The position numbers and the translations under genes are program-made. Source: Alphaproteobacteria bacterium (GTDB lineage Bacteria > Pseudomonadota > Alphaproteobacteria > JAEUKQ01). From it: a stretch of DNA of 45,732 nt. Below the pieces are notes generated by a model. The model did not search any database and was not told where the DNA came from. It saw only the letters and a program-made list of their open reading frames with translations. The first letter of the stretch is position 1, and each line of letters opens with the position of its first letter. The stretch is from positions 1 through 45,732 of the forward strand of contig JAEUKQ010000007.1 in assembly GCA_016794225.1 (NCBI GenBank), read 5' to 3'. Shown piece by piece: positions 11,767-13,850 of the stretch.

Positions 11767-12128
11767 GCCAGATAATCGGGCAGTTGCTGGTAACTTGGCT
11801 TACCAGAGGAAAGTCCGGGCTCTACGAATAAATGATGCCGGATAACGTCCGGCGGGGGAAACCCTAGGGAAAGTGCCACAGAAAATATACCGCCGAATTC
11901 GGTAAGGGTGAAAAGGTGCGGTAAGAGCGCACCGCATATTCAGTAATGAATATGGCATGGAAAACCCCATCAAGAGCAAGACCAAGTAGGAGCAACCAAC
12001 CCCTAGGGGTTAGATGGTTATTCGCATCGTTGCTCGGGTCGGTCGCATGAGGTCATAGGCAACTATGCCCCTAGATGAATGACTGCCTTGCTTATAGCAA
12101 ACAGAACCCGGCTTATAGATTATCTGGC
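11767..12128 (+). ncRNA. rnpB: RNase P RNA (bacterial class A)
   Basis: Catalytic RNA that removes 5' leaders from pre-tRNAs. The ends pair as an 11-bp P1 helix (GCCAGATAATC at 11767-11777 with GATTATCTGGC at 12118-12128). A P3-type hairpin CTGGTAA/TTACCAG is at 11787-11806. The universal core is intact: GAGGAAAGTCCGGGC at 11806-11820, AGATGAAT at 12073-12080 and ACAGAACCCGGCTTA at 12101-12115. Total length is about 362 nt. A T-rich run follows P1 and may serve in termination. The whole region is non-coding despite short open frames on the minus strand. Confidence 0.96.
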
Positions 12129-12429
12129 TTTGTTTTTTGCAACCATAGATATTTATGAATTCTTGGATGTTGCATAATTGCAATACAGCCAATAAAAAAT
12201 TAAAGAACTTTAAAAGAATTTATAGTAAACAAAAAAACAACATATGTTTACATATGGGCCTGTATCTCTTGATTCACCAAGTGTATGGCCAATTTATAAC
12301 TTTTTGTTTTTTCCCAGCAAATTTCAGCATATTCCCATTGACTCCCATAATATCCCATGATATCCCAAATATATACCTACATATGCTTCTGCTAAAAACA
12401 ATAAGATTTACCTGCAGGTTGCCCTCAAA
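12129..12429. other. Intergenic leader between rnpB and mraZ
   Basis: About 300 nt, AT-rich. A 96-codon frame crosses it (12155-12445) but has no coding look and overlaps the mraZ start. The region carries the MraZ box array at 12333-12367 and the probable promoter for the division and wall cluster. The 62 nt between the last box and the mraZ ATG would be the leader. I see nothing else in 12140-12300. Confidence 0.6.
12333..12367 (+). promoter_or_regulatory. MraZ operator: four TCCCA boxes at 10-bp spacing, overlapping a promoter
   Basis: TCCCA begins at 12333, 12343, 12353 and 12363, each separated by exactly 5 nt, which is TGGGA-N5 repeated on the minus strand. This is the known MraZ-binding pattern (TGGGN-N5 repeats). 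A fifth, off-register copy is at 12312. A -35 match, TTGACT at 12338-12343, lies between boxes 1 and 2; the 17-nt spacer leads to TATCCC at 12361-12366, over box 4. Binding of MraZ should therefore block the promoter, giving autorepression. Confidence 0.85.
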
Positions 12430-12885
12430 ATGGCATTATTTTTAGACACATTTATTAACAAAATTGACAAGAAAGGCCGTGTATCTGTGCCTGCGCCATA
12501 TCGTTTGAGTCTGTCGGGCTTGTCGTTTCAGGGCATCATTGCTTTACCTTCATTTAAAAATAAGGCGATTATTTGTGCTGGTATCGACTGGATGGAAAAG
12601 CTAAGCCAGCAAGTTGGGCGGGTTGATCTGTTTTCTGATGCACATGACGATTTAACAGCAACGTTATTTGCTGACGCTAAGCAGCTAGGATTTGATGGAG
12701 AAGGTCGGATAATACTTCCAGAAAGCCTTTTATCACACGCCCATATTCAAGAGAGTGCCGCTTTTGTTGGACGTGGACAAATTTTTGAAATATGGCAGCC
12801 AGAAGCACTTGAAAAATATAAAATATTTGCCCGCAAACAAGCCTTAGAAAAGAACAGAACCTTAAGTGTTATATCAGATAAATAG
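12430..12885 (+). CDS. mraZ: Transcriptional regulator MraZ
   Basis: DNA-binding regulator of the division and wall cluster, 151 residues, with two tandem AbrB-like halves that form a ring-shaped oligomer. Both halves carry the DxxGRxxxP-type motif: IDKKGRVSVPAPYR near residue 14 and FDGEGRIILPESLL near residue 97. It is the first gene of the cluster, 62 nt after four MraZ boxes, so it very probably regulates its own operon. The stop codon is 5 nt before rsmH. The Shine-Dalgarno is weak. Confidence 0.95.
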   Translation: MALFLDTFINKIDKKGRVSVPAPYRLSLSGLSFQGIIALPSFKNKAIICAGIDWMEKLSQQVGRVDLFSDAHDDLTATLFADAKQLGFDGEGRIILPESLLSHAHIQESAAFVGRGQIFEIWQPEALEKYKIFARKQALEKNRTLSVISDK

Positions 12886-12890
12886 CCCCT

Positions 12891-13850
12891 ATGACCGAGC
12901 AATATACTCATATTCCTGTATTGTTAAACGAAGTGGTAAAAGGCCTTCGGCTACGCACGGGTGGTATTTATGTGGATGCAACTTTTGGTAATGGTGGATA
13001 CAGTGAAGCGTTCCTGCTGGCTGCAGATTGTAAAGTTTGGGCCATCGACCGTGATCCGCAAGTCAAAAACCGTGCACATGAATTACAATACCGCTACCCC
13101 GGCCGTTTCAGGTTTATCCCTGGCCTATTTAGTCAATTAGATCGTTTGCTATCGATCAACAATATCAGCAAAATCGATGGAATTGCCTTTGATCTGGGGG
13201 TTTCATCACGTCAATTAGATGATCCTGAACGTGGTTTTTCCTTTCGTCATGATGGAAAACTTGATATGCGCATGGGCATGGATGGAATATCCGCAGCAGA
13301 TATTATTAATCATTGGGACGAAAAACAGCTACTTGATTTGTTAATTAACTATGGCGAAGAACCAAACGCAAAACGAATCACCAAGGCAATTGTTATTGCC
13401 CGCAAAAAAGAGCCAATTACCAGGACAAAACAGCTAAGCAGCTTAATTCAAGATGCCATTACTTTCCGTACAAGCCATAAAATAGACCCGGCAACACAAA
13501 CTTTTCAAGCTTTACGCATCGCAACCAACAACGAAATGAAGGAACTGGAAAACGCGCTGATTATGGCTGAAAAACTTTTAAATCCTTTGGGTCGCCTGGC
13601 GGTTGTTTCTTTCCATTCATTAGAAGATCGTTTGGTCAAAAATTTTTTACGATCACGAAGCTTGCCACCAAGCAACAAATCACGTTATTACCCTCAGCAT
13701 GAGAACCTTGATTTTCATCCTACTTTTCGGTTGGTCAGAGGACATGCGATTACACCATCTTTAAATGAGTTATCTATGAATAGAAGATCCCGTTCAGCAA
13801 AGCTTAGACTTGCAGAACGCACTGAATTTGAAAAATCAAGGGAGAACTAA
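12891..13850 (+). CDS. rsmH: 16S rRNA m4C1402 N4-methyltransferase
   Basis: SAM-dependent methyltransferase (formerly MraW) acting on C1402 in the ribosomal P site. 319 residues. Seen: N-terminal HIPVLLNEVVKGL, the SAM-binding loop VDATFGNGGYSEAFL near residue 25, AIDRDP, FDLGVSSRQLDDPERGFSF, LDMRM, and the C-terminal SFHSLEDRLVKNFLR, all typical. It lies 5 nt after mraZ and the next gene starts 1 nt after its stop, so it is firmly in the operon. Confidence 0.97.
   Translation: MTEQYTHIPVLLNEVVKGLRLRTGGIYVDATFGNGGYSEAFLLAADCKVWAIDRDPQVKNRAHELQYRYPGRFRFIPGLFSQLDRLLSINNISKIDGIAFDLGVSSRQLDDPERGFSFRHDGKLDMRMGMDGISAADIINHWDEKQLLDLLINYGEEPNAKRITKAIVIARKKEPITRTKQLSSLIQDAITFRTSHKIDPATQTFQALRIATNNEMKELENALIMAEKLLNPLGRLAVVSFHSLEDRLVKNFLRSRSLPPSNKSRYYPQHENLDFHPTFRLVRGHAITPSLNELSMNRRSRSAKLRLAERTEFEKSREN

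Follow-up and report, generated by a model that had tools for sequence, protein, structure and literature searches.

A predicted MraZ operator merged with the core promoter of the division and wall cluster in an alphaproteobacterium

Introduction

The mraZ gene of an alphaproteobacterium (assembly GCA_016794225.1, contig JAEUKQ010000007.1) is preceded by regularly spaced copies of a short word. The question that this locus raises is whether the repeats form an operator for MraZ, and how they are placed with respect to the promoter of the division and wall (dcw) cluster. The window analysed here is the whole stretch of 45,732 nucleotides, read on the forward strand.

MraZ is widespread, and most descriptions of its sites come from E. 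coli, Burkholderia and Mollicutes. The MraZ boxes themselves, their 10-bp phasing, their position before mraZ and the existence of four-fold repeats are already known.

The box array and the neighbouring genes

The word TCCCA occurs on the + strand at 12333-12337, 12343-12347, 12353-12357 and 12363-12367, with a step of exactly 10 bp, as the initial annotation of this DNA had described; on the - strand the same array reads TGGGA. It is located 63-97 bp upstream of mraZ, and boxes 2-4 have AT in front, not G. The fifth, off-phase copy mentioned in the same annotation is indeed present. This copy probably lies outside the core array and has no in-phase counterpart in the genome. The features of the array are the following:

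12312..12316, - strand: out-of-phase copy of TGGGA, 21 bp upstream of the array (read from the sequence)
12333..12337, - strand: putative MraZ box 1 (TGGGA), just upstream of the -35 element, variable across the class (sequence and conservation profile)
12343..12347, - strand: putative MraZ box 2, which abuts the -35 element, nearly invariant in 63 aligned arrays
12353..12357, - strand: putative MraZ box 3, in the spacer between the -35 and -10 elements, nearly invariant
12363..12367, - strand: putative MraZ box 4, which overlaps the -10 element, nearly invariant

Chance is expected to produce about 1e-10 four-box arrays in the 298-bp intergenic region, given its base composition, and about 5e-7 genome-wide, based on the frequency of TCCCA in the window. 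The sole exact match to TGGGN6TGGGN6TGGG in the 1.62-Mb genome is the array before mraZ.

The array is followed by mraZ, mraW and a PBP gene, and preceded by the gene of the RNase P RNA:

11768-12131, same direction as mraZ: rnpB (RNase P RNA), directly upstream
12430..12885, + strand: mraZ, 151 amino acids (Pfam PF02381, E=4e-17), with the DXXXR motifs DKKGR and DGEGR in its translation
12891..13850, + strand: mraW/rsmH, second gene of the dcw cluster (Pfam PF01795, E=5e-96)

The locus therefore shows several traits expected of an MraZ operator. A word of the GTG(G)/TGGG type is directly repeated at least three times in 10-bp steps, the repeats are placed shortly before mraZ, where the dcw cluster begins, and the MraZ encoded there carries DXXXR in both halves. 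Solved structures of MraZ include 1n0e, 9qlg, 9qlr and 9sx6 (PDB). With 156 bits versus the required 257 for its best match, the MraZ encoded at 12430-12885 stays under the curated cut-offs of all the NCBIfam MraZ models listed, so that automatic naming may miss this gene.

Two other observations concern the upstream region. A short word of the 3' end of rnpB is found upstream of mraZ in 33 of 97 loci of the class. In addition, the AT-rich DNA that precedes the array contains, at 12200-12213, a TTAA-N6-TTAA motif which resembles CtrA half sites, possibly by chance.

Core promoter elements in register with the boxes

The initial annotation recognized a TTGACT element interleaved with the boxes. 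This element follows box 1 and shares one letter with box 2, which begins with the final T of TTGACT. A -10 element, TATCCC, was missing from that annotation; it is preceded by TG at 12358-12359 and separated from the -35 element by a 17-bp spacer.

12338..12343, + strand: predicted -35 element TTGACT, whose phase with the boxes is fixed in 61 arrays
12358..12366, + strand: predicted extended -10 element TGaTATCCC (hexamer 12361-12366), whose position fits the published starts of S. meliloti and R. sphaeroides; 57 of 66 TGnTA words share one phase

Compared with the housekeeping sigma consensus (TTGACa/TATAAT), the -35 element matches at five positions out of six and the -10 element at three out of six, but the latter has the extended TG and the spacing is 17 bp. 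A generic promoter scan did not report the -10 TATCCC and yielded nothing of use.

The register of these elements was examined in arrays found by phased CCCA alone, and hence selected independently of the promoter letters. Of the 62 nearby TTGA[CT] words, 42 share one phase of the 10-bp frame, and of the 66 TGnTA words, 57 likewise fall in one phase. The 63 aligned arrays were picked by their match to the composite of boxes and promoter, and the phase test is thus the only one that is free of that choice. In these aligned arrays, positions 5-9, 15-19 and 25-29 of the core correspond to the three nearly invariant boxes. Two boxes are variable, one before the -35 element (box 1 here) and one after the -10 element (absent here).

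A GANTC site (GACTC) at 12340-12344 overlaps the -35 element and box 2. A role for this site was considered; against it, no CcrM-type domain (PF18755) was detected in this genome, and GANTC is present at this place in only 11 of the 63 arrays of the class.

Conservation across Alphaproteobacteria

PF02381 is present in 62 of 76 related genomes, each of which represents a different family of the same class. The named genomes in which this element also occurs identify the class as Alphaproteobacteria. The initial annotation suggested an alignment of the leader with related genomes, and the arrays prove to be conserved in the class. Most relatives have, upstream of mraZ, the composite (TCCCAT)TGAC-n-CCCAT-n5-CCCATG-n-TATCCCA, sometimes with an extra box downstream; the only other genome of the same order (locus L008) has TCCCATTGACGCCCATCTAATCCCATGATATCCCA. 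When a box is counted if at least three of the four CCCA letters are present, the phased runs in the 63 aligned arrays comprise three boxes in 9 cases, four in 30, five in 19, six in 3 and seven in 1, one array being broken at the anchor box. Four boxes are thus the commonest state, and three to five are usual. The array of four boxes was correctly described, but the count is not exceptional, contrary to what the initial annotation implied: four is the most frequent number in the class and is also reported for B. cenocepacia (PMC7761207).

The exact composite TTGAC-n-CCCA-N6-CCCATGnTATCCCA is found in 15 of 67 genomes of the same class versus none of 182 genomes from other classes of Pseudomonadota, and the reversed pattern, used as a control, has no match. 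A scan of 84,980 species genomes for the composite returned at least 120 stretches. Among the 80 loci listed, the titles name Alphaproteobacteria or are uninformative, except for one Nitrosomonas bin, and mraZ was recognized downstream in 75 of these 80 loci; a less strict search added two. The exception, a contig binned as Nitrosomonas sp. OFTM190 (locus L178), carries an alphaproteobacterial array together with an alphaproteobacterial-looking MraZ, and is probably a mis-binned contig.

The presence of the array follows that of mraZ. An array is found in 49 of 56 mraZ-positive loci of the class versus, upstream of mraW, one of 14 class genomes that have no Pfam MraZ match (P=2e-8, phylogeny being ignored), and the sole MraZ-less genome with an array carries a MraZ-like motif in the same place. 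These sequence comparisons indicate that the array depends on mraZ in evolution.

Predicted transcription start

Weber et al. (PMC5089854) mapped the dcw transcription start of R. sphaeroides 268 nt before mraZ, using differential RNA-seq, 5' RACE and reporter fusions, and gave a length of 170 nt for the mraZ leader of S. meliloti, based on public sequencing data. In S. meliloti 4H41 (locus L153), which is perhaps not the strain in which the start was mapped, the composite ends 176 nt before mraZ. The genome G362 is taken as that of R. sphaeroides by inference, from its 100% identity to the R. sphaeroides reaction-centre H chain (the query was confirmed against PDB chains). Its composite, TTGCGTCCCATGAAATCCCATGGCATCCCT, ends 274 nt before the mraZ start codon, taken as the in-frame GTG. 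The offset between the end of the composite and the published start is therefore 6 nt in both species, though their leaders differ by about 100 nt. In the family of the R. sphaeroides genome, the distance from the end of the composite to mraZ is mostly about 245-290 nt.

The promoter assignment, as read from sequence, thus predicts the published starts in S. meliloti and in R. sphaeroides, the latter being identified indirectly. Applied to the window, the same offset gives:

12374 (within about 2 nt), + strand: predicted transcription start, with a leader of about 56 nt

The predicted folding of the leader RNA reveals no structure above that of shuffled sequences (z=0.49).

In R. sphaeroides, as taken from G362 (locus L279, 0-based positions 1184-1213), the published start of the abundant small RNA UpsM is at the MraZ-box promoter. 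This leads to the prediction that UpsM is under MraZ control. No mention of MraZ binding, boxes or repeats was found in the UpsM paper (PMC5089854). The R. sphaeroides dcw/UpsM promoter belongs to the same class as the one described here and has a similar box array which ends 6 nt short of the published start, but it differs in its 268-nt leader, which yields UpsM.

Comparison with known MraZ systems

The MraZ operator of E. coli, attributed to Eraso et al. 2014, reportedly lies at mraZ1p. As in the window, TGGG is directly repeated in 10-bp steps at mraZ1p, a short distance before mraZ and at the dcw promoter. However, the E. coli repeats are three in number, read TGGG on the coding strand and follow the -10 element, whereas here there are four, with TGGG on the template strand and over the interval from the -35 to the -10 element. 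In B. cenocepacia, the binding of MraZ to a PmraBc fragment which has four repeats spaced by 10 bp was demonstrated by EMSA (PMC7761207). The number and step of the repeats are the same as here, but those of PmraBc are downstream of the -10 element and overlap the transcription start. The operator layout of E. coli and Burkholderia is thus not that of the present locus: since the boxes lie downstream of the -10 element in both species, the geometry here differs from the one that has been studied experimentally.

The MraZ site of Mollicutes consists of AAAGTG[T/G] repeats (Fisunov 2016, as cited in PMC8475190). There too, MraZ recognizes directly repeated words around the mraZ promoter, but the core letters are different. 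According to the account given in PMC8475190, MraZ represses in E. coli, and the ftsZ transcript of M. genitalium is raised when mraZ is mutated.

Most loci examined from other classes have GTGG(G) boxes on the coding strand. Considering this orientation, and the position downstream of the -10 element in E. coli, both the orientation and the position of the boxes have changed in Alphaproteobacteria. One locus of the same class (L104, genome G131) has at least four CCCA boxes downstream of TTGACT...TATAAA, that is, the alphaproteobacterial orientation in an E. coli-like position; this layout is possibly an intermediate.

Alternative explanations

The boxes could bind MraZ while the main dcw promoter lies elsewhere, for example upstream, near 12269-12300 (TTGATT...TATAAC), or while transcription reads through from rnpB, MraZ acting as a roadblock or as an upstream regulator. 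The -10 TATCCC is a poor match to the consensus, rnpB precedes mraZ closely and in the same orientation both in the window and in the 33 loci mentioned above, and secondary mraZ starts have been reported in at least some agrobacteria (PMC10469942). However, the fixed register of the -35 and extended -10 elements with the boxes and the 6-nt offset shared by two published starts argue against a main promoter elsewhere, which we consider unlikely. The spacer between TTGATT and TATAAC is 20 bp, longer than usual, and the reporter fusions in R. sphaeroides revealed no promoter nearer to mraZ than the mapped one (PMC5089854). It has also been considered that MraZ activates from the array, since FtsZ of M. 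gallisepticum rose on overexpression of MraZ (Fisunov 2016, cited in PMC8475190). Activation is quite improbable given that the boxes here lie over the -35 element, the spacer and the -10 element. Activators rarely work from positions that cover all three. The repression observed in E. coli and the effect of the M. genitalium mutation also point in the opposite direction.

Two further readings were considered. The four GGG tracts of the - strand could form a G-quadruplex that regulates mraZ: their sequence, GGGN7GGGN7GGGN7GGG, satisfies a loose quadruplex rule, and a PmraZ quadruplex has been reported in S. aureus (PMC11796246). Yet the loops are at the upper length limit, and a quadruplex would be expected to keep its GGG tracts and leave loop length free, whereas arrays of the class keep the step of exactly 10 bp together with the A and T letters beside the tracts, and the arrays of many relatives have interrupted GGG tracts or three boxes only. 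The arrays also vanish along with mraZ, and this reading is very improbable. Finally, the repeats could be codon repeats of a small gene, for there is an open frame of 96 amino acids at 12155-12445. It spans the array and has no Pfam match, so that the initial annotation rightly warned that the stretch could be mistaken for a gene. That it is a real gene is extremely improbable: it overlaps the mraZ start, and in the better tblastn matches the similarity falls mostly on residues that the boxes encode, which is explained by the conservation of the boxes as DNA. Amino-acid conservation outside the boxes was not found.

Proposed mechanism

Positions 12333-12367 very probably constitute a promoter-operator through which MraZ would repress its own dcw cluster by blocking RNA polymerase. 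The boxes, the promoter register, the conservation in the class, the loss with mraZ and the agreement with mapped starts are directly seen by sequence comparison, and they favour the proposal of the initial annotation that MraZ boxes are embedded in the dcw core promoter. The arrangement itself thus stands, but it is a property of Alphaproteobacteria and not a trait of a single genome.

The combined promoter and operator would drive mraZ and the downstream dcw genes. RNA polymerase with the housekeeping sigma factor would use TTGACT (12338) and the extended -10 element TGATATCCC (12358-12366), and start near 12374. The four TGGGA boxes, which are 10 bp apart and thus face the same side of the helix, would be bound by MraZ, probably in the form of a ring-shaped oligomer. 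Because boxes 2-4 cover the interval between the -35 and -10 elements and some bases of the -10 element belong to box 4, bound MraZ would exclude the polymerase and repress its own operon. The binding of MraZ to the array and its oligomeric form are inferred, and the sign of the regulation is taken from the work on E. coli, B. cenocepacia and Mycoplasma.

At the level of the class, it seems somewhat more probable than the contrary that Alphaproteobacteria have merged the MraZ operator with the dcw core promoter, the -10 element overlapping a box and the array being flipped and shifted with respect to other Pseudomonadota. The array resembles an ordinary on/off switch of these bacteria that has received little description. 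A search of the open literature, outside of which the key papers on E. coli and Mollicute MraZ lie, found no class-wide fusion of boxes and core promoter and no link between UpsM and MraZ. The alphaproteobacterial arrangement is thus a variant, shared across the class, of a system already known, and its priority is uncertain.

Implications

With the composite as a simple rule, the dcw promoter of Alphaproteobacteria, Rhizobiales and Rhodobacteraceae among them, can be located and its transcription start predicted. The composite also leads to the prediction that repression occurs through direct occlusion of the promoter. That box orientation and position can change while the 10-bp phasing stays constrains the models of how the MraZ ring reads DNA. 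If the predicted control of UpsM is true, this RNA would be a MraZ-controlled transcript in Rhodobacteraceae, which would link MraZ to a trans-acting RNA.
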